Source: Bacillota bacterium
GTDB lineage: Bacteria > Bacillota > Clostridia > Ch29
Direction of reading: 5' to 3'
Length of the DNA: 60,923 bases
Assembly (NCBI GenBank): GCA_013540605.1
Contig: JABVCK010000010.1
Coordinates: forward strand, 1 to 60,923
Positions 3,127 through 52,359 of the stretch are shown here, piece after piece (the first letter of the stretch is position 1; every line of letters starts with the position of its first letter). The translations under genes were made by a program, and so were the position numbers. The notes below the pieces were generated by a model, which saw nothing but the letters and a program-made list of their open reading frames with translations, was not told where the DNA came from and searched no databases.

Positions 3127-3155
3127 TTGAACAGGGCTGTGCCGCATGTTATAAT
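3127..3155 (+). promoter_or_regulatory. SigmaA-type promoter of the ABC-F leader transcript
   Basis: TTGAAC at 3127-3132 and TATAAT at 3150-3155 are separated by exactly 17 bp. Transcription would begin near 3162, leaving a leader of about 280 nt before the ABC-F start at 3444. Confidence 0.75.
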
Positions 3156-3189
3156 TATTAGACAGAATCAAATGTTTATGAGGTGCGCG

Positions 3190-3213
3190 ATGAGGAAAGT
3201 GTTTTTTAACTAA
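3190..3213 (+). CDS. Putative 7-residue leader peptide MRKVFFN
   Basis: A short frame ATG-AGG-AAA-GTG-TTT-TTT-AAC-TAA follows the GAGGTG at 3180-3185 with about 4 nt spacing and sits about 28 nt after the predicted transcription start. Codons 3-7 form the left arm of a 14-bp inverted repeat (3197-3210), so a ribosome stalled here would control folding of the leader. This is the layout of leader peptides of antibiotic-inducible resistance genes. The peptide itself is not recognised and its role is inference. Confidence 0.5.
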   Translation: MRKVFFN

Positions 3214-3296
3214 TCGAAATCAATAATATCTTAAGGGTGCTGTAAATACCAAGGGATCAGTATGTGCCTTTAAGAGGTGATGGTTAAAAAACACTT
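3197..3296 (+). promoter_or_regulatory. Attenuator stem in the ABC-F leader (14-bp inverted repeat with nested hairpin)
   Basis: Bases 3197-3210 (AAGTGTTTTTTAAC) are an exact reverse complement of 3283-3296. Inside them, 3230-3240 can pair with 3264-3274 over 11 positions, three of them G-U. The outer left arm overlaps the leader peptide codons. With the terminator at 3355-3396 this makes a plausible ribosome-mediated attenuation device. Confidence 0.6.
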
Positions 3297-3354
3297 ACAG
3301 GGGAATTAATATCAGAGTCTATAAGTCTTATAGCTCATACATTTGCCTATTCGG

Positions 3355-3396
3355 CTGCAGTATAACACCCGGGTGTTTGCTGCAGTTTTGTTTTTT
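3355..3396 (+). terminator. Intrinsic terminator inside the ABC-F leader
   Basis: CTGCAG at 3355-3360 and 3380-3385 flank the palindrome AACACCCGGGTGTT (3364-3377). A run TTTTGTTTTTT follows directly. It lies about 50 nt before the ABC-F ribosome binding site and would stop transcription unless prevented. Confidence 0.7.
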
Positions 3397-3443
3397 GCGT
3401 TTGTATTTCTTAAAGCTGCGGAACAGGATAAGGAGATGATTGA

Positions 3444-5207
3444 ATGAATTTACACTTTTCAGGTCTTTGTAAAAGCTACATAGGAAAAAAGGTATTTGAG
3501 AATATCAGCGGGCAAATCAATCCCCAGGACAGAATAGGATTGATTGGTGCAAATGGCGTTGGGAAAACAACCCTTGCCAGGCTTTTAGCAGGACGGGAGG
3601 CCTGTGATACAGGCGAGATCAGCTATTCACCCTCTTATATGGAAACCCTGTATATTGAACAGTATCCCATATTTGATTCAGATATTTCAGTCTATGGGGA
3701 AGTTCCCCGAGTAGTTCCCAATGACAACAATAATATAAAGGATATAAAAACAATAGTTGAACGGGCCCTTAACAGGGTCGGTTTAAGCAAGGATAAATGG
3801 GAACAGAAGGCGGAAACCTTAAGCGGAGGCGAAAAAACAAAGCTGCTGCTTTGCAAAGCTATGGTCAGCCATTTTGATTTGCTTATCCTTGACGAGCCCA
3901 CCAATCACCTTGATATGGACAGCTATGGGTGGCTGGAGGAATTTGCCCAGGATATCGGTAAGCCCATGCTGGTCATATCCCATGACCGTTTTTCCCTTGA
4001 TAATGTTGTTAACAGGATATGGGAGTTAACTTCCCGGGGCTTAAAAGCGTATGAAGGTAATTACTCGGCTTATAGGATCCAAAAGGAAATCGAATTGGGA
4101 AGCCTAGCCAGGGAGTACGATAAACAGCAAACTAAAATTGAACATCTCAAACAGGTGATAAATCAGAGAAAGGGTTGGTATAACAGCGCTCACAAATCGG
4201 CGGGTCAAAATGATTTCTATAGAGCCAAGGCAAAAAAACATGCAAATGTGTTAAAGGCCAAGGAACGGGAACTGGAAAGAATAGAAAAAGCAAGGATAGA
4301 TAAACCGCAAAAACCGGTATCCCCCGCCTTTGAGGTTATCAATAAAAATATTACGGGCAGGAAACTTCCCCCATTCCTTGTCCAGGGCAAAAATCCATGT
4401 AAAAATTTCGGCGAAAAGCTGCTCCTTGATGATATTTCTTTCAATATAAAGCGCCGGGACAAAATAGCGCTTATCGGGCGAAACGGAGTGGGAAAGACAA
4501 CCTTTCTCAAAGTGGTATGCGGCATCGATAAAGACTATGGCGGGACTGTTACCATAAACCCCTCGGTTAAGATTGGCTATTTCGCCCAGGAATTTGATGA
4601 CCTGGATAATGGGGCTGCCATACTTGATGATGTCCTGGCTGTGGGGGCCGGCGCGGAAGATGCCAGACTGCTGCTTGCCGGCTTGCTTTTCCGCGGGGAC
4701 GATGTCTATAAAAGAATTGCAAACTTAAGTATGGAGGAAAAGGGCAGGGTAGCCTTTGCAAAGCTCATACTGTCGGGAGCCAATTTGCTTGTATTGGATG
4801 AGCCTACAAACTATATGGATATCCAGTCCAAAGAAAAAATTGAAAAGGTGCTGGATGAATTCGGTGGAAGCATTGTTTTTGTTACCCACGACAGGTATTT
4901 TATCAATGAGCTGGCAAACCGGATTTTTGTCATAGATAATCAGAAGCTTTACTGTTACGATGGCAGCTATGAATATTACATGACTAAACGCAGGGAACAA
5001 AAGGCAAAGGAAGAAATAGGCGTTGAATACAGGCATTTAGCCGACAACATCAGACGGTTGGAATGTGAACTGGCTTTTTTAGGCGGTAAATTAAATGAAA
5101 CCCAGGATGAAGAGGAAAAAGAAAGGCTGAACAGAAGATTTTTGGAAGCGGCAAAGGAGCTTAAAAGAAATAAGGAATACCTTAAGGGACCGGAGTTGAA
5201 TAATTGA
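3444..5207 (+). CDS. ABC-F family ATPase, probable ribosome-protection type
   Basis: A 587-residue protein with two ABC ATPase domains and no membrane segments, typical of ABC-F translation factors or antibiotic resistance proteins that act on the ribosome. Domain 1 has Walker A GANGVGKTT, signature LSGGEKTK and Walker B LLILDEPTNHLD; the charged interdomain linker is around residues 210-290; domain 2 has GRNGVGKTT and LLVLDEPTNYMD. The second signature is degenerate (LSMEEKGR instead of LSGGE). A Lys/Glu-rich coiled C-terminus ends the protein. AAGGAGAT precedes the ATG by 7 nt. The long leader with terminator argues for an inducible resistance gene, but no particular drug class can be assigned. 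Confidence 0.87.
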   Translation: MNLHFSGLCKSYIGKKVFENISGQINPQDRIGLIGANGVGKTTLARLLAGREACDTGEISYSPSYMETLYIEQYPIFDSDISVYGEVPRVVPNDNNNIKDIKTIVERALNRVGLSKDKWEQKAETLSGGEKTKLLLCKAMVSHFDLLILDEPTNHLDMDSYGWLEEFAQDIGKPMLVISHDRFSLDNVVNRIWELTSRGLKAYEGNYSAYRIQKEIELGSLAREYDKQQTKIEHLKQVINQRKGWYNSAHKSAGQNDFYRAKAKKHANVLKAKERELERIEKARIDKPQKPVSPAFEVINKNITGRKLPPFLVQGKNPCKNFGEKLLLDDISFNIKRRDKIALIGRNGVGKTTFLKVVCGIDKDYGGTVTINPSVKIGYFAQEFDDLDNGAAILDDVLAVGAGAEDARLLLAGLLFRGDDVYKRIANLSMEEKGRVAFAKLILSGANLLVLDEPTNYMDIQSKEKIEKVLDEFGGSIVFVTHDRYFINELANRIFVIDNQKLYCYDGSYEYYMTKRREQKAKEEIGVEYRHLADNIRRLECELAFLGGKLNETQDEEEKERLNRRFLEAAKELKRNKEYLKGPELNN

Positions 5208-7239: not shown

Positions 7240-7895
7240 ATCAATGCACCAGGTCTAAACCCTTCGCCTTTCAGGCGAAAAGCTTTGAGCATTGACAAGG
7301 CAGGAACTGTCATATAAGATAGCGCTGAGGTGAGAGAGGTGAAGGAATACAGAAAAAACAGTCATGCAGTATACGATATAAAGTACCATGTAATCTGGAC
7401 AACAAAGTACAGATATAAAGTACTTAAAGGGGAAATAGCCAAAAGGGCAAGAGACCTCATAATACAAGGGTGCGAGGCAAGAAACATAGTGATAATTAAA
7501 GGTAGTGTGGGAAAAGACCATATACATATACTAATATCATGCCCACCTACTATAGCCCCAGCGAAGATAATGCAGTATTTAAAAGGGAGATCATCAAGGA
7601 TGCTACAGGATGATTTTCCAGAACTTAAGAAAAGATACTGGGGGCAGCATTTGTGGTCAAGAGGATATTTTTGTGCGACAGTAGGGAGCGTAACAGAAGA
7701 GATGATAAAGCAGTATATAGAGAATCAGGGAAGGCAGGAGAATAATGATTTTAAAATTGAAGAATGATTTCAGTCGTAAATTTAAGCTTGCATTTAGCAG
7801 ATGGTCTTTAAGTGGGCTTAAGCCTAAAAAGCGAGTTTCACTCGCACAAAATTTATTTTGTAACCCACCTGCTTCAGCAGGTGGTAGTTTAGTAT
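7240..7895 (+). mobile_element. IS200-type insertion sequence (IS200/IS605 family, tnpA only)
   Basis: A single Y1 transposase gene is flanked by subterminal hairpins rather than inverted repeats, as expected for IS200. On the left, TTCGCCT and AGGCGAA form a hairpin at 7263-7279; on the right, GCGAG/CTCGC (about 7830-7844) and CCACCTG/CAGGTGG (about 7864-7883) form two. The sequence GTTTAGTAT occurs at both outer edges. The exact ends are approximate. It abuts the truncated recQ. Confidence 0.75.
7339..7767 (+). CDS. tnpA: IS200/IS605 family Y1 transposase TnpA
   Basis: A small HUH-type single-strand transposase of about 142 residues. It has the conserved VYDIKYHVIWTTKYR N-terminus, the HUH motif HIHILIS for metal binding, and a C-terminal helix with the catalytic tyrosine in QYIENQ. 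GTG 7339 has GAGGTGAG at good distance; GTG 7330 upstream would overlap the binding site. The length is normal and no key residue is missing, so the enzyme may be active. There is no tnpB/IscB partner. Confidence 0.88.
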   Translation: MKEYRKNSHAVYDIKYHVIWTTKYRYKVLKGEIAKRARDLIIQGCEARNIVIIKGSVGKDHIHILISCPPTIAPAKIMQYLKGRSSRMLQDDFPELKKRYWGQHLWSRGYFCATVGSVTEEMIKQYIENQGRQENNDFKIEE

Positions 7896-7904
7896 ACAGA
7901 AGAG

Positions 7905-9033
7905 TTTTCTATTGGATGATGATGATGACTCGGTGAGAATTGTCTGCGCAACTAATGCTTTTGGATTGGGTATTGATAAGCAGAATAGGTTTGTAATACA
8001 CTATAGCATTCCGAGCTGTCTGGAAGAATATTATCAGGAAGCAGGAAGAGCCCGAAGAGACGGGCAAAAGGCTTATTGCGTGTTATTATATGATAAGAAT
8101 GATGTTGACCTGCAAGATTACCTTATAAGAGAAAGTATGATGTCGCCGACATTAATCAATAAAGTGATTAAAGAAATTCTAAGGTCACAAAGCTTTGGCA
8201 GTTATTATTTTTTCAACATGAAGAGTTTTGAACTCAAACATGGAGTAGAAGACAATAAGATAAAGGCAAGCATTTATGCTCTGGAAAAATTAGGATTTAT
8301 AGACAGGCTGTTCAACATTCCTGCCGATATTAGACTAACGTATCATACTGTGCCGAAATTAACCAAAAATTCATTATTAAGATTTATGTATCCAAAAACA
8401 GAAATAAACACTCATATTTTTTGCAATACATATAATATCAACCCTGATCATTTTGTTAATAAGCTGAACAGGCTCGCTTTGACAAAGGAGATCAACACTA
8501 TGGAACAGAAAATACTGTTTTGATTTATCTAAAGACGGCGCCAGAATTTTTCGGCGGTTTAAGCATTAGTAAGAATGAAATACGAAAGGCTTTGCTTATA
8601 AAAGATAAAGAAATTAAACTTCAGGACATGCTTTTTTATTGTACACAAGCTTTGTGTAGGAGTAGTTATATTAGAAAATATTTTAATGAAAGTGCAGAAG
8701 AGAATTGCGGCTGTTGCGACCTTTGTGATAGAAAGTACAAAGAGTTTGTCTCTGGGTTGACAGAGGAGCCGCTAACGCCATTATCATCTATAGTAAAACT
8801 TCATGGAAATTATATAGACATGGGGTATGCCTGCTCAACGTATAGTTTTTCAAGAGGGGAACTAGAAACTATCATGAGCTTGGAAGGCTGTTGTATGATT
8901 TTAAATACAAAAATCGAAAAGAAAATGTAATTAAAAAACTAGTGTTTATAAACGATGGTTCAACCGATGAACTAATGGAGAATATTAAAAGAGACAGTGT
9001 TGAAATATATGGGGAAATCGGGAGGGAGTTATG
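7905..9033 (+). pseudogene. recQ: Truncated, multiply frameshifted RecQ-type helicase (possibly fused to a ComF-like domain)
   Basis: Only the C-terminal half survives. It starts in helicase lobe 2 (VCATNAFGLGIDK, then IHYSIP and YYQEAGRARRDGQ: motifs V and VI) directly after the IS200 right end. The frame is lost between about 8480 and 8520 and resumes with the RecQ zinc module (C-R-S-S-Y-I-R-K-Y-F and CGCCDLC). A second shift near 8850-8880 leads to a tail HELGRLLYDFKYKNR that resembles the start of a ComF-type phosphoribosyltransferase, ending at TAA 9031-9033. Lobe 1 with Walker A and DEAH is absent. The gene is dead; the IS insertion or a linked deletion probably removed its 5' half. Confidence 0.82.
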
Positions 9034-21731: not shown

Positions 21732-21779
21732 GGGGACATTCCGCGGCAAGAAATACCCGGGCAGCAGCGGTGTGTCTTC
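21732..21779 (+). repeat. Dispersed palindrome GGGGACA-type, copy 1
   Basis: Begins GGGGACATTCCGCGGCAAG and ends GCAGCGGTGTGTCTT. The ends are nearly inverse (GGGGACA against TGTCYYC), with an inner CCGC/GCGG pair. It lies in the pgpA-mtnA intergenic region. Related copies are at 32076-32262, 43191-43221 and 46515-46562. Confidence 0.8.
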
Positions 21780-21944
21780 TTTCAACTAAATTATTTCCAT
21801 TTTACTATAGTTTTACGATATACTCAAACGGGGGAGTTATATTCTATTATATTTTTTCTGCCATATTAGTTGCATACAAAGTAATAAAAAGGATTCCGGG
21901 GAAAATTGTTGTATATACTATAAGAGGAAAAGGAGGGGTGGTTG

Positions 21945-25850: not shown

Positions 25851-26023
25851 AGTTATCAGTTACCAGATGACAGATCACAGACGTCAGGGCAAGGCTAGAG
25901 GGTAAAAACCCAAAGGCCTCAACCGAAAGTCTGCGAAATGTGATCTATGATCTATGATCTGCGAACTGCGATCTGCCAACTGTGATCTATCACCTGCGAA
26001 CTACGAACTACCAACTACGAACT
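25851..26023 (+). repeat. Heptamer-built dispersed repeat, copy A
   Basis: The left arm runs in 7-bp steps (AGTTATC AGTTACC AGATGAC AGATCAC AGACGTC), then a core AGGGCAAGGCTAGAGGGTAAAAACCCAAAGG-like, then a right arm of degenerate 7-bp units (TGATCTR, CGAACTR, CCAACTR). Right-arm units are reverse complements of left-arm units. The copy fills the gap between the aldolase terminator and the RBS of the GGR-type gene. Copies B and C are at 32101-32246 and 51029-51166. Confidence 0.88.
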
Positions 26024-26040
26024 GAAAGGAATGCATATAT

Positions 26041-32075: not shown

Positions 32076-32262
32076 GGGGACATTCCGCAGTTCAGTTTTT
32101 AGTTACCAGTTCCCAGTTGCCAGATGACAGACGTCAGAGCAAAGCTATAGGGTAAAAACCCAAAGGCATAACTCGGATACCTGTGATCTGTGATCTACGA
32201 ACTACCAACTACGAACTACGAACTACCAACTACCAACTACGAACTAGCAGCGGTGTGTCCCC
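32076..32262 (+). repeat. Dispersed palindrome GGGGACA-type, copy 2, split by heptamer repeat copy B
   Basis: The left half GGGGACATTCCGCAG (32076-32090) and right half GCAGCGGTGTGTCCCC (32247-32262) match the two ends of copies 1 and 4. Between them lies heptamer repeat B, so one mobile-like sequence is nested in the other. Confidence 0.75.
32101..32246 (+). repeat. Heptamer-built dispersed repeat, copy B
   Basis: Same architecture as copy A: AGTTACC AGTTCCC AGTTGCC AGATGAC AGACGTC, core with AGGGTAAAAACCCAAAGGC, then TGATCTG and a long run of CGAACTA/CCAACTA units. The core has changes (CAGAGCAAAGC, GGCATAACTC) that break the short stem possible in copy C. Confidence 0.88.
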
Positions 32263-32296
32263 TGACATTAATATGGTTTCACGGAGGGATTTTTTG

Positions 32297-35738: not shown

Positions 35739-37553
35739 TTAAGGGCATATCTCCTTGGTTATATGTTTGGGAGAACTTTTGGAAACGATTCTATTAAGCA
35801 TCTTTATGCCTTCACGGTCGATTTTGCCAAACATCTTTATGGACCTCATGAATTCCTGGTAAGCCAGACTGTAATAGCCGTTGCTATAATAGAGCTTTGC
35901 AAGCCTGAGAAGCACTTCGTCGTTCTCTATGAGGTTGAGAAGCTGAAGGGATTTTTCGAAGGTTTCAGGGGGGCCTGCGGTAAGAACAATGCTTAAAAGG
36001 TCGAATATAATGTTTACAAACCTCCCGGATTCTTCCCTGTTACTGTTTATGGGTTCACACTTCTTACCCTCCAGTATCTCTACAAAAGTTTTATATACAG
36101 TCCTGGTATCGTCATCTTTATACTCATTGGTTTTTTCAAGCAGTTGGGAGGCTTTATACATGTTACCCTTCAAGGCTTCGCAAAGGGCTATTCTAAACCG
36201 TGCCATCTCGTAGAATTCCCCCGGCTTTACGCTGTCAAAGCATTCTACAGCCCTGTCAAACTCCTTAAGGTACAGGAGGCACATTCCCTTGCGGTACAGT
36301 ATATCGGCTGAGTCCCTATCAGTTTTTTCAGCCAGAACAAAATAATCCAGAGCAATATCATATTTCCGGGACATTATGAATATATCAGCAATCGTCATTA
36401 ACGAGGATCTATTTATACTACCCCTAAAAAAGCTCTCAACTGATGATTTGATATAACCTATGCCATTATGCATTTCCAGCAGTATGGGAACGATTTTATA
36501 AAGCGCTTCGGTAAAATCCGGTTTTAGCCGCAGGGCTTCCATGCAGTACCTGTAGGCCCTATCGTAATCTTCCAGCTCAAAATACAGTTCGGAGAGAGCA
36601 TAGTGAGCCCTATAGCTGCCCGAACCCGGTATAAACCTTTGATTTGATGGTGGGTCGCCCATTGCCAGGCATTTTTCGAAACCCTTTACAGCCAGGGAGA
36701 TTTTACCCTGGCTAAGCAAAAGTTCTGACCGTATATATTCCAGGTCGGTAAATTCCGGATAGAATTCAAGCCCACAAGAAATTACCTCGAGTCCTTCTTC
36801 AACAAGGTCCAATTCATTCAATACCTTCACCAGCATGAGTACAAGCTTTGGCCCATATTGTGCACCGGGATCAAAACACTCATATGCCTTTTTATAGTAT
36901 TTTAAAGCCTTGTTTAAATCATCGTCAGTAAAATACTCGTTTCCCATGAAGAAATATATTTCAGAAGGGTTACCGATACTATATCCGTTTGATCCGTTTG
37001 AAGTGCGTGTCTCGTCCTCAATTGCAAGGCTCTTCCTAAGTTTTACTTCCAACCTTGGCGCGAATATCATGTTTTCAAACTCTTTGCTATAAAATGCTAC
37101 AAGGGAATCCCTGCTTTCATCCGAAGATTTGAGCATTACCCCGCAGTTGGGGAACTGCCCCTGCCGCCATCCATTGTAGAGTTTTGTAATGTCTATCCTT
37201 ATAAATGTGTTTATTTCATCCCTGATTGTCAGGATAGCATAGGGTCTTTCATCAAAAATGGGTTGGTTGTCATAGCTTACAGTTTTTTGCTCAAAACTTT
37301 CAGTTAACCTATGAATACTGAATTTTTTAGGACAATCGGAGCTGTCGTTTCGCATTATATACAGTACAAGTTCCACTTTTGCAATGTTCCCGGAGGGTAG
37401 GATCGGTACTTCGAACAGGAACAAACTTCTATAGACAGCCTGACCCTGGAATCTACCTAAAAACAGGGCATAATAGTCACTGAAGTTCCGGTCGGGCATA
37501 TCGCTGTTGATGCTGCAATTAGCCGCAGGAAGTTGAATTATTGTTTGCGCCAT
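35739..37553 (-). CDS. DNRLRE-domain protein with C-terminal TPR repeats
   Basis: About 604 residues. The N-terminal 190 residues are a DNRLRE-type domain like that of the downstream gene (NCSINSDMPDRNFSDYYALFLGRF ... LVAFYSKEFENMIFAPRLEV). The rest is a chain of TPR units (EYFTDDDLNKALKYYKKAYECF, YALSELYFELEDYDRAYRYCMEAL, ADILYRKGMCLLYLKEFDRAVECFDS). The final 180 codons are nucleotide-identical to the upstream glycosyltransferase gene. ATG 37553 is chosen because GAGG lies 9 nt away. It overlaps the upstream gene by 35 nt. It looks like a fusion between a surface domain and the TPR tail of the glycosyltransferase. Confidence 0.75.
   Translation of the reverse strand: MAQTIIQLPAANCSINSDMPDRNFSDYYALFLGRFQGQAVYRSLFLFEVPILPSGNIAKVELVLYIMRNDSSDCPKKFSIHRLTESFEQKTVSYDNQPIFDERPYAILTIRDEINTFIRIDITKLYNGWRQGQFPNCGVMLKSSDESRDSLVAFYSKEFENMIFAPRLEVKLRKSLAIEDETRTSNGSNGYSIGNPSEIYFFMGNEYFTDDDLNKALKYYKKAYECFDPGAQYGPKLVLMLVKVLNELDLVEEGLEVISCGLEFYPEFTDLEYIRSELLLSQGKISLAVKGFEKCLAMGDPPSNQRFIPGSGSYRAHYALSELYFELEDYDRAYRYCMEALRLKPDFTEALYKIVPILLEMHNGIGYIKSSVESFFRGSINRSSLMTIADIFIMSRKYDIALDYFVLAEKTDRDSADILYRKGMCLLYLKEFDRAVECFDSVKPGEFYEMARFRIALCEALKGNMYKASQLLEKTNEYKDDDTRTVYKTFVEILEGKKCEPINSNREESGRFVNIIFDLLSIVLTAGPPETFEKSLQLLNLIENDEVLLRLAKLYYSNGYYSLAYQEFMRSIKMFGKIDREGIKMLNRIVSKSSPKHITKEICP
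35792..36333. repeat. 542-bp direct repeat, copy 1
   Basis: Identical, as far as I can compare by eye, to 37602-38143 (offset 1810 bp). It encodes the same TPR tail in two neighbouring genes. Flanks are related but diverged, which points to recent gene conversion. Confidence 0.9.
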
Positions 37554-39369
37554 TATCTTTAACCTCACTTACCATAATCCTGCGGGGAAGGATGAAGATT
37601 TTATTAAGCATCTTTATGCCTTCACGGTCGATTTTGCCAAACATCTTTATGGACCTCATGAATTCCTGGTAAGCCAGACTGTAATAGCCGTTGCTATAAT
37701 AGAGCTTTGCAAGCCTGAGAAGCACTTCGTCGTTCTCTATGAGGTTGAGAAGCTGAAGGGATTTTTCGAAGGTTTCAGGGGGGCCTGCGGTAAGAACAAT
37801 GCTTAAAAGGTCGAATATAATGTTTACAAACCTCCCGGATTCTTCCCTGTTACTGTTTATGGGTTCACACTTCTTACCCTCCAGTATCTCTACAAAAGTT
37901 TTATATACAGTCCTGGTATCGTCATCTTTATACTCATTGGTTTTTTCAAGCAGTTGGGAGGCTTTATACATGTTACCCTTCAAGGCTTCGCAAAGGGCTA
38001 TTCTAAACCGTGCCATCTCGTAGAATTCCCCCGGCTTTACGCTGTCAAAGCATTCTACAGCCCTGTCAAACTCCTTAAGGTACAGGAGGCACATTCCCTT
38101 GCGGTACAGTATATCGGCTGAGTCCCTATCAGTTTTTTCAGCCCTTAAAAGGTATTCCAGAGCTATATCATGTCTTTTCAGTCCTGAAAAAACCCTTTCA
38201 AGGGTAATAAACGGTGTCCTGTCCGGTATCGCCTCAAAAAAGTTTTCCAGTTTGGATTTTATAACATCCATTTTTACACCTTTTTTATCCAGAACCTGGG
38301 CAATCCTATTGAGCGGCAGAGTAAAGTCAGGGTTCATCCTTATGGCTTCAACACAGTGGTTGTAGGATGCATTGTAATCCCCCAGTTCAAAGTATATTTC
38401 CGAAAGGGCGTGGTGAGCCCTGAAGTTACCGGCTCCAAGAATAAAGCTTTGATATAGCGGAGGTTCGCCCATCGATAAGCATTTCTTATATGCCCTTATG
38501 GCCAGGGTAAATTTATCTTGGTGATGGAATAGAGATGCCTTCAAGTACTCAAGGTCAGTGAAATCCGGGTAATATTCCAGGCCCTCATTAATAATTTTTA
38601 GTTCTTCCTCATATAGGCCAAGCGCATTCATGGAAAGAGCCATTCTGAAGAACAGCCTGGGGCCGTAACCCGTATCCGGGTGAAAATTGCTGTAGGCTCT
38701 TCCGTAATACTCAAGGGCTTTTATATGGTTATCCAGAGCTGTGAATTCATTTCCCACGTTGAAGAGGGTAAAAGCGTCATCAGGATTATCCTCCAGTACT
38801 TTTTGAAGTATTCTTATGTTCCTGCTCCGTTTATTTTTCTCTATGACATTTTGGTGAAGGTAACCGTGATGGTGAAATTTCACCCTTTCCGAGCGTATCC
38901 TGCCTTTGCTGAAATCAGGATTTTCATTTGTTATCTGTTCATGTATTTCCCCCTCAAACCTGTAGCCCCTGCAATTTCTTATAAGCCTTACATTCAAGTT
39001 GCACACCACGTCAAGGCCGGGTTTATTTCCAACGTAGTTGAGGGTTTGCAGCAGGTAAACATCAACGTTTTTATTTGTCATCAGCTCCAAAAGCTTTGGT
39101 TTGTCTGACTGCTCAAGTTCATCATCTGCATCCATTATTAATATCCAATCACCGGTTGCATGCTTTAGGGAATAGTTCCTGGCTGCACTGAAGCTGTCGT
39201 CCCACTTGTAAAAGAGCACTTTGGCTCCATAACTCCTCGCAACTGCTACCGTTGAATCGGTGGACCCGGTATCCACAATAATCATTTCGTCAACAATGTC
39301 ATTGACGCTTTCAAGGCACCTTGCGAGGGTTTTTTCTTCATTTTTTACAATCATGCACAGGCTGAGCAT
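37519..39369 (-). CDS. Glycosyltransferase family 2 with C-terminal TPR repeats
   Basis: 616 residues. Residues 1-230 are a GT-A glycosyltransferase: LSLCMIVKNEEKTLARCLES, EMIIVDTGSTDSTV, FSAARNYSLKHATGDWILIMDADDEL (DxD site), and the EGEIHEQI loop of the SunS/TPR-glycosyltransferase group. The remainder is a TPR superhelix. Enzymes like this glycosylate surface proteins or peptides. The adjoining DNRLRE proteins may be substrates (inference). The last 16 or so residues (RRIMVSEVKDNGANNNSTSCG) run into the start of the next gene. GGGGGG lies about 10 nt before ATG. Confidence 0.82.
   Translation of the reverse strand: MLSLCMIVKNEEKTLARCLESVNDIVDEMIIVDTGSTDSTVAVARSYGAKVLFYKWDDSFSAARNYSLKHATGDWILIMDADDELEQSDKPKLLELMTNKNVDVYLLQTLNYVGNKPGLDVVCNLNVRLIRNCRGYRFEGEIHEQITNENPDFSKGRIRSERVKFHHHGYLHQNVIEKNKRSRNIRILQKVLEDNPDDAFTLFNVGNEFTALDNHIKALEYYGRAYSNFHPDTGYGPRLFFRMALSMNALGLYEEELKIINEGLEYYPDFTDLEYLKASLFHHQDKFTLAIRAYKKCLSMGEPPLYQSFILGAGNFRAHHALSEIYFELGDYNASYNHCVEAIRMNPDFTLPLNRIAQVLDKKGVKMDVIKSKLENFFEAIPDRTPFITLERVFSGLKRHDIALEYLLRAEKTDRDSADILYRKGMCLLYLKEFDRAVECFDSVKPGEFYEMARFRIALCEALKGNMYKASQLLEKTNEYKDDDTRTVYKTFVEILEGKKCEPINSNREESGRFVNIIFDLLSIVLTAGPPETFEKSLQLLNLIENDEVLLRLAKLYYSNGYYSLAYQEFMRSIKMFGKIDREGIKMLNKIFILPRRIMVSEVKDNGANNNSTSCG
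37602..38143. repeat. 542-bp direct repeat, copy 2
   Basis: Second copy of the segment at 35792-36333, inside the glycosyltransferase-TPR gene. Beyond both edges the two genes still align but differ, so only the central block has been made uniform. Confidence 0.9.
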
Positions 39370-46496: not shown

Positions 46497-46514
46497 GCAG
46501 TGATAGAAAGGTCA

Positions 46515-46562
46515 GGGGACACACCGCTGCTATGCAGGTATTCCTTGCCGCGGAATGTCCCC
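46515..46562 (-). repeat. Dispersed palindrome GGGGACA-type, copy 4
   Basis: In reverse orientation it reads GGGGACATTCCGCGGCAAGG ... GCAGCGGTGTGTCCCC and aligns along its whole length with copy 1 at 21732-21779. It lies 18 bp after the pplA stop. Confidence 0.85.
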
Positions 46563-51028: not shown

Positions 51029-51166
51029 AGTTACCAGTTATCAGATGCCAGATGACAGACGTCAGGGCAAGGCTATAGGGTAAAAACCCAAAGGCCTGAC
51101 CCGGACGCCTGTGATCTGCGAACTGCGATCTGCCAACTGCAAACTACGAACTACGAACTACCAACC
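51029..51166 (+). repeat. Heptamer-built dispersed repeat, copy C
   Basis: AGTTACC AGTTATC AGATGCC AGATGAC AGACGTC, core GTCAGGGCAAGGC...GGCCTGAC in which GTCAGG/CCTGAC and GGGT/ACCC can pair, then TGATCTG CGAACTG CGATCTG CCAACTG and CGAACTA units. It overlaps the last codons of the convergent alaX gene and supplies its stop codon. Confidence 0.88.
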
Positions 51167-52359
51167 AGCACCTTCGCTAGTGCCTCAATAGTTTCGTCAA
51201 TTACAATCTGGGCTTTTTCAGGTGTTTCTACGCCGCCCTGCACAACGGCGCTGCTCCCGCCGCCTTTTCCGCCTGCCAGGGTCATGGTTTCCTTGAAGAC
51301 AGGCCTCAGGTCTATGGGAACATCCGGCGAGCGGCTGATGATTAACTGCGCTTTTACGTTGGATGTGCACAGCAATGCGATACATCCGCCGTGTTCCGTA
51401 ATCTTGGATGCCAGCAGCTTGATTTCATCAAAGGGTTTTTTATAGAACATGAACCGGACGATTTTATAGGGTCCGATTTCCCGGGCATCACGCACCATCG
51501 CTGCTGCTTCCAGTGAGTAATACTGTTCCCGCAATTCCTCAACGGCCTTGGAAAGGCACTTGTTCTCGGCTGCAATTCTTTCTACTGCCCCAAGAGCTTC
51601 ATGGTCTCTTACCGATAGAAGCGACGAGATCTTATTAATGCTTGTATTTTTATCCCGGAAATCCCGCAGCGCGCGCTTGCCGCAAACAAACTCCAATCTG
51701 AGGCCATCCTTGTTTTTCTCCCATTTCCGTATTTTGATTATTCCTACGCTGCCTGTTCCGGCTGGATGAGTGCCTCCACACGGGCAAAAATCAAAGCCGT
51801 CAATTTCCACAATACGGATATCCTCAGTGACAGACGGAGGTTTTCTCAACGGAATTCCGGGCAGGTCTTCCCAGCTTACAATATAAGTCTTTACTGCAAG
51901 GCTGCGGAAAACAATCTCATTGGCCATGTCCTCCGCCCGGTAGATAGTTTCTTCCGGCAAGTCAGGTCTGTTAAGGTCAATATAGACATATTGGGATCCC
52001 AGATGGAACCCTACCGTATCTGCATCGGCCAATTTTTCAAAGCAAGATGACAGGATGTGCTGGCCCAGATGCTGCTGCATGTGGTCAAAGCGCCTTTCCC
52101 AGTCGATTTTTCCGGTGACACGCTCCACCTGTATGGGCTGCGACAGTATGTGGACAATCGTACCGTTCTCTTCAACGACATCGATGACCGGTGAGTCATC
52201 AAGCCAGCCGGTATCGTTGGGCTGACCTCCACCCGTAGGATAAAAGGCCGTCCGGTCGAGGACAACCTCATACCCCCTGGCGGTCTTTTCCCGGCTCAAG
52301 ACGCGGGCTTCGAAAATGTTTTCATAAGGGTTGTACAGGAATAGTCTACCTTCATTCAA
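51151..52359 (-). CDS. alaX: Alanyl-tRNA editing protein AlaX-L with DHHA1 domain
   Basis: About 402 residues. Freestanding editing factor that clears Ser or Gly from tRNA-Ala. N-terminal part FYPTGGGQPNDTG, zinc sites HMQQHLGQHILS and FCPCGGTHPAGTGSVG, then a coiled region and a C-terminal DHHA1 domain ending GGKGGGSSAVVQGGV. This matches the long AlaX type. TTG 52359 is best supported (AAGAGGTG at 6 nt); GTG 52395 upstream has none. The last residues (GSS-stop) are encoded by heptamer repeat C, so the natural C-terminus may have been slightly altered. Confidence 0.9.
   Translation of the reverse strand: MNEGRLFLYNPYENIFEARVLSREKTARGYEVVLDRTAFYPTGGGQPNDTGWLDDSPVIDVVEENGTIVHILSQPIQVERVTGKIDWERRFDHMQQHLGQHILSSCFEKLADADTVGFHLGSQYVYIDLNRPDLPEETIYRAEDMANEIVFRSLAVKTYIVSWEDLPGIPLRKPPSVTEDIRIVEIDGFDFCPCGGTHPAGTGSVGIIKIRKWEKNKDGLRLEFVCGKRALRDFRDKNTSINKISSLLSVRDHEALGAVERIAAENKCLSKAVEELREQYYSLEAAAMVRDAREIGPYKIVRFMFYKKPFDEIKLLASKITEHGGCIALLCTSNVKAQLIISRSPDVPIDLRPVFKETMTLAGGKGGGSSAVVQGGVETPEKAQIVIDETIEALAKVLVGSS

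Follow-up and report, generated by a model that had tools for sequence, protein, structure and literature searches.

In a 60,923-nt stretch of a clostridial Bacillota genome, hereafter the window, a resistance-type ABC-F gene is very probably controlled by a ribosome-mediated transcription attenuator of the vmlR/cplR/msrD kind; we put the probability of this reading at about 85%. It is carried by the elements themselves, their conservation, the co-variation of their pairings, the association with the gene and the predicted folding, from which we infer ribosome stalling, read-through, the class of inducing drug and protection by the ABC-F protein. The initial annotation, made from the window alone, had proposed that the ABC-F gene is preceded by a leader-peptide attenuator. 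That remains the best reading, and comparative data add to it a conserved antiterminator pairing and, in relatives, a further switch acting on the Shine-Dalgarno sequence.

The observed arrangement of elements (Table 1) is correct and far beyond chance, and the 241-nt leader has a folding energy of -67 kcal/mol (z = -3.1 against shuffles, with 2 of 200 as good). The seven-codon leader ORF with its ribosome-binding site and the T-tailed terminator stand as first described, and both recur in relatives. The promoter, which had been called strong, is present and also recurs, most of 22 leaders having an extended -10 that ends about 27-36 nt 5' of the ATG, but on their own such promoter-type matches are no commoner than in shuffles (4 found, 5.1 expected). 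The reported 14-bp inverted repeat was correctly placed, with its left arm inside the leader codons, but it is 16 bp long: this helix, P1, contains one G-U pair, and its left arm begins in leader codon 3 and extends into the stop codon. The predicted antiterminator is extended by GGG at 3300-3302 pairing with CCC at 3368-3370. The terminator hairpin occupies about 3353-3387 and is followed by the tract TTTTGTTTTTT at 3386-3396; a simple terminator scan missed it because its stem is interrupted. Beyond the terminator, 3404-3415 can pair with 3268-3279 or, through TTTCTTA, with the ABC-F Shine-Dalgarno (SD) sequence.

Table 1. Elements of the leader and the gene that follows it (window coordinates).
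Feature	Position	Strand	Remarks
Promoter TTGAAC-17-TATAAT with TG extension (extended -10)	3127..3155	+	
Leader SD GAGGTG and spacer	3180..3189	+	kept in the alignment of relatives
Leader ORF MRKVFFN, 7 codons and TAA (ATG AGG AAA GTG TTT TTT AAC TAA)	3190..3213	+	
P1 left arm AAGTGTTTTTTAACTA (leader codons and stop)	3197..3212	+	pairs with 3281-3296
P1b apical hairpin TCTTAAGGGTGC / GTGCCTTTAAGA	3229..3275	+	arms 3229-3240 and 3264-3275; permutation p = 5e-5
P1 right arm TGGTTAAAAAACACTT	3281..3296	+	3' half, 3289-3296, is the antiterminator left arm
Antiterminator AAACACTT (3289-3296) with GGGTGTTT (3371-3378)	3289..3378	+	predicted; prefix folding and pairing test
Intrinsic terminator hairpin GGCTGCAGTATAACACCCGGGTGTTTGCTGCAGTT and U tract	3353..3396	+	folding; 5' arm : 3' arm p = 5e-5
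Possible anti-SD region TATTTCTTAAAG	3404..3415	+	weak in the window's lineage
ABC-F SD region (AAGGAG)	3432..3438	+	
ABC-F gene, 587 aa, ribosomal-protection-like	3444..5207	+	NCBIfam NF000355

To compare pairings among relatives, duplex energies of segment pairs within species were set against those between species by permutation; the relatives are phylogenetically non-independent and the pairs were chosen after seeing the data. P1, P1b and the two arms of the terminator each gave p = 5e-5, as did the segment flanking the right arm on its 5' side (an anti-anti-SD) against the post-terminator anti-SD. The antiterminator pairing, between right arm and terminator 3' arm, gave p = 1.5e-4 to 3e-4 with a modest difference in energy (-8.5 versus -7.6 kcal/mol), and the anti-SD with the ABC-F SD gave p = 8.5e-4 to 3.5e-3. 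Control pairs were mostly not significant, a few reaching p of 0.01-0.04. We rejected an antiterminator built from an upstream segment and the terminator 5' arm: the right arm, the P1b left strand, the leader and the middle region all gave p of 0.11-0.65 in that role. RNAalifold on the MAFFT alignment alone was likewise set aside, returning 13 pairs with little co-variation, because changes in run length misregister the arms in the alignment.

Prediction of alternative folds had been suggested at the outset, and the outcome depends on how the RNA is folded. At equilibrium, with the hairpin complete, the terminator wins in every relative whether or not a ribosome is stalled on the leader. We therefore rejected equilibrium folding as proof of antitermination, which would have to rest on timing. 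When prefixes of the growing RNA were folded with a ribosome footprint masking the leader AUG, the antiterminator formed 8-14 pairs and the terminator almost none in all 20 relatives, taking the best of the lengths tested; this occurred with RNA 3' ends at -8 to -4 relative to the U tract. With the leader unmasked the antiterminator stayed low and the terminator built up in nearly all relatives, and shuffling the right arm usually abolished the antiterminator. Loci L116, L137, L136 and L138, which include copies linked to a major facilitator superfamily (MFS) transporter, behaved likewise. Prefix folding and co-variation thus both yield a mutually exclusive antiterminator that is freed by occupation of the leader.

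These results suggest the following mechanism. Without drug, the leader would be translated or free, its codons would be held by the right arm in P1, which stacks on P1b, the terminator would form and the RNA would end near 3396. The P1 inverted repeat would thus act as an anti-antiterminator, the antiterminator being a separate pairing between the right arm and the terminator 3' arm. A drug that holds the ribosome at the leader start or first codons would leave the P1 left arm covered. The freed right arm, AAACACTT, could then pair with the emerging terminator 3' arm, GGGTGTTT, before the closing CTGCAG arm is available, and RNA polymerase would read through into the ABC-F gene. Many relatives have a predicted second layer, in which the stretch immediately 5' of the right arm takes up the anti-SD and so frees the ABC-F SD; in the lineage of the window it is weak or displaced.

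This second layer raises an alternative, which we consider unlikely: that the leader is mainly a translational attenuator, with a leaky constitutive terminator and control exerted by the anti-anti-SD releasing the ABC-F SD. Co-variation of anti-anti-SD and anti-SD is strong in relatives, about 10 of 19 relatives switch from a sequestered SD to a captured anti-SD when the leader is blocked in folding, and the terminator at equilibrium is indifferent to the ribosome. Against it, L009, L089 and the window show the switch weakly or not at all. The window and its closest relatives lack the CTATCATC-type anti-SD, for which 3404-3415 may be a weaker substitute, and the MFS-linked copies retain P1, antiterminator and terminator with no obvious anti-SD. 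Antitermination, by comparison, is backed by prefix folding in all relatives.

The leader ATG is invariant among relatives and the ribosome-binding site is conserved, and the P1 left arm always lies inside or directly after the leader ORF. The P1 helix is found in all relatives, with compensatory changes (GCG/CGC in L104, TTC/GAA in L018) and changes in length, and with a mismatch in a few (L088, L120). Its U-run and A-run lengths covary (6/6, 5/5 and 4/4; the arms are TTTTTAAAC/GTTTAAAAA in G538, G775, G778 and G779): a U run of 5 or 4 instead of 6 goes with an equally short A run and a changed leader reading frame. The encoded peptides include MRKVFFN, MRIVFFN, MRTVFFN, MRRVFFN, MKQVFFN, MKKVFFN, MRKVFFS, MKRVFFNY, MNIMFLTNK, MKQVFLTK, MRNVF, MSISVF, MDNCFLTNN, MRSVL, MRKVFFNLV, MKKAFFNL, MKKVFLN and MKRVFLN, and in G779 the ORF is reduced to two codons (ATG AAG TAA, MK-stop). 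The C-terminus is thus frame-shifted or truncated in relatives and not conserved. Matched substitutions and run-length changes beside an invariant start codon argue that the helix, not the peptide, is the conserved thing, and the peptide beyond its first residues looks like a by-product of the RNA helix.

The competing view, quite unlikely in our estimation, is that the exit tunnel recognises MRKVFFN itself in the presence of a particular drug, in the manner of MYLIFM in msrD. Peptide-specific arrest is how msrD acts, and MRKVFFN or one-residue variants of it occur in many relatives. However, the conserved residues are those forced by the pairing, and the helix is kept with MNIMFLTNK, MKQVFLTK, MRNVF, MSISVF, MRSVL and MK leaders. 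The peptide had been called unfamiliar, and a literature search for MRKVFFN found nothing. Recognition of this peptide as such is improbable: its C-terminal residues follow from the RNA helix. Constraint on the attenuator acts mainly on the RNA, and what it senses is probably an early stall. Conservation of helix over peptide fits drugs that halt ribosomes at or just after initiation, as has been argued for vmlR and cplR (PMC10201436). An amino-acid attenuator sensing phenylalanine supply through the two adjacent UUU codons of the seven-codon leader is very improbable, since several relatives have fewer of these codons or none and the downstream genes encode an ABC-F protein or a drug pump rather than biosynthesis; a ligand-binding riboswitch with an incidental short ORF, which the long, structured leader might suggest, is equally so, given the invariant ATG, the conserved ribosome-binding site, the fixed position of the left arm relative to the ORF, a highly variable central loop and no match to Rfam covariance models apart from one chance mir-30 hit at E 0.5.

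The downstream ORF is the ABC-F ATPase that was originally called: it scores 457.6 bits against the model for 'ribosomal protection-like ABC-F' (cut-off 380) and has two ABC domains and an ABC_tran_Xtn linker, without a membrane domain. It falls far below the NCBIfam cut-offs for the CplR, Vga, Sal, Lsa, Msr and OptrA families (298 bits for CplR, cut-off 780), and its best-scoring solved relative is Neobacillus VmlR2 (PDB 8buu, 292 bits). The scan of species genomes found 79 ABC-F loci, about 23 of which, at 44-70% identity, form a separated group. In a tree the leader-bearing proteins are a clade (support 97/90) apart from the CplR-like, Msr, Lsa, OptrA, PoxtA, Sal and VmlR2 rows; in this tree, which holds no VmlR row, VmlR2 falls outside the clade and its branch is long. 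The window's protein is thus an uncharacterised member of an unnamed clostridial ABC-F clade. Its ARD linker (105 aa) is as long as in pleuromutilin/lincosamide/streptogramin A protectors (Sal 102, LsaE 111, VmlR2 114), while OptrA (83), PoxtA (87) and the other ABC-F protein of the window's genome (84) have shorter ones. We infer a protective (resistance) function for the clade. Among possible inducers, a peptidyl-transferase-centre drug of the pleuromutilin/lincosamide/streptogramin A class is the likeliest.

We searched 391 genomes of the class, 398 of the phylum and 10 of one family with R1, a covariance model built from the leader. R1 matched in 25 genomes, once in each. Members of the window's ABC-F clade follow 22 of these matches; contig ends or gaps truncate some of them, and one of the genes is broken; one match (G436) precedes an internally deleted ABC-F remnant. 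The remaining two (G538, G779) precede a transporter whose best scores are to TIGR00900 and Mef macrolide pumps, below the cut-offs of those models. The sister genome G775 (L151) has the order attenuator, ABC-F, MFS and the same upstream ABC exporter gene. The same MFS gene directly follows ABC-F there, so we rejected a swap of the attenuator onto an unrelated pump; most likely ABC-F was lost from the operon in G538 and G779, leaving the pump gene directly behind the attenuator. The leader may be a largely peptide-independent stall sensor, in which only the start codon region and the helix count, that reports any initiation-freezing drug and was kept on an ABC-F and Mef-like pump operon after ABC-F loss, an idea to which we give slightly less than even odds.

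Nearly all of the roughly 23-member ABC-F group has the leader. In one clade member (L016) a right arm and terminator are present, with no leader in the 336 nt of upstream sequence. The sister group L026/L029/L032 differs from the main leader clade; its Fervidicella member (L029, 895-1019) has a MIN leader whose stop codon marks the start of the helix. MIN is the vmlR tripeptide, and a common origin of the two leader types is possible. Among individual loci, the attenuator lies directly 5' of the Mef-like pump at L116 1513-3027 (G538) and L137 1513-3022 (G779), and is retained beside a broken or internally deleted ABC-F gene at L138 1776-2976 (G778) and L120 (G436, minus strand, about 1140-1340). 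Four Clostridium loci (L036, L054, L068 and L081, about 3714-4944) likewise carry this type of MFS gene 3' of a CplR-like ABC-F gene, and ABC-F and Mef-like MFS genes are a recurring pair.

Elsewhere the window holds three arrays of short 7-nt-based repeats such as CTACGAACTACCAACTACGAACT (25924-26037, 32167-32259, 51088-51180) and a dispersed, partly inverted element with core TAGCAGCGGTGTGTC (21732-21797, 32245-32280, 46503-46562), one copy of which adjoins a repeat array. Identical 300-nt stretches in neighbouring minus-strand ORFs (35787-36086 and 37597-37896) are a recent duplication or conversion. An IS200-like transposase ORF is followed by ORFs that, by eye, resemble fragments of a RecQ-type helicase (7330-8930).

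On this reading, drug-inducible control of ABC-F genes would extend to an unnamed clade whose hosts are mostly uncultured and environmental Clostridia. Natural variants (frame-shifted leaders, the two-codon leader and the copies on Mef-like pumps) can separate peptide from RNA requirements and bear on how ARE-ABCF leaders sense early-acting drugs. R1 and the anatomy of the element could help in annotating genes for intrinsic, inducible resistance.

The design of the attenuator is known, with experimentally shown analogues in vmlR (PMC9226507), cplR (PMC10201436) and msrD (PMC10314930), and the leader sequence family appears to be undescribed, as we found no Rfam family or paper describing it. 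The Bacillus subtilis vmlR leader combines the uORF MIN, an anti-antiterminator hairpin, an alternative antiterminator and an intrinsic terminator (Takada 2022, PMC9226507). It shares with the window a uORF in the anti-antiterminator hairpin, the antiterminator, the terminator and an ARE-ABCF target, but its uORF has three codons rather than seven, a vmlR-like SD-sequestering hairpin with competing pairing is weak in the window, and in our tree, where VmlR2 has a long branch, the window's ABC-F protein does not appear to group with VmlR2. For Neobacillus VmlR2 the reported uORF consensus is MK[L/Q], whereas the window encodes MRKVFFN. In the Clostridioides difficile cplR leader, with the uORF MRI, premature termination and induction by retapamulin and lincomycin have been shown (Obana 2023, PMC10201436). 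The window resembles it in being clostridial, in a uORF starting MR and in its predicted premature termination, but in cplR the terminator stem itself sequesters the SD, whereas here terminator and SD hairpin are separate, and the protein is not CplR. In msrD, a ribosome stalled on the leader MsrDL (MYLIFM) prevents an intrinsic terminator, and arrest needs both the peptide and the stop codon (PMC10314930). The likeness lies in the leader of 6-7 codons, a terminator that would be prevented by a stalled ribosome, and the link to a Mef pump. The differences are that arrest in msrD depends on a peptide while the window's leader peptide is not conserved, and that in G775, unlike msrD, the ABC-F gene precedes the Mef-like gene.
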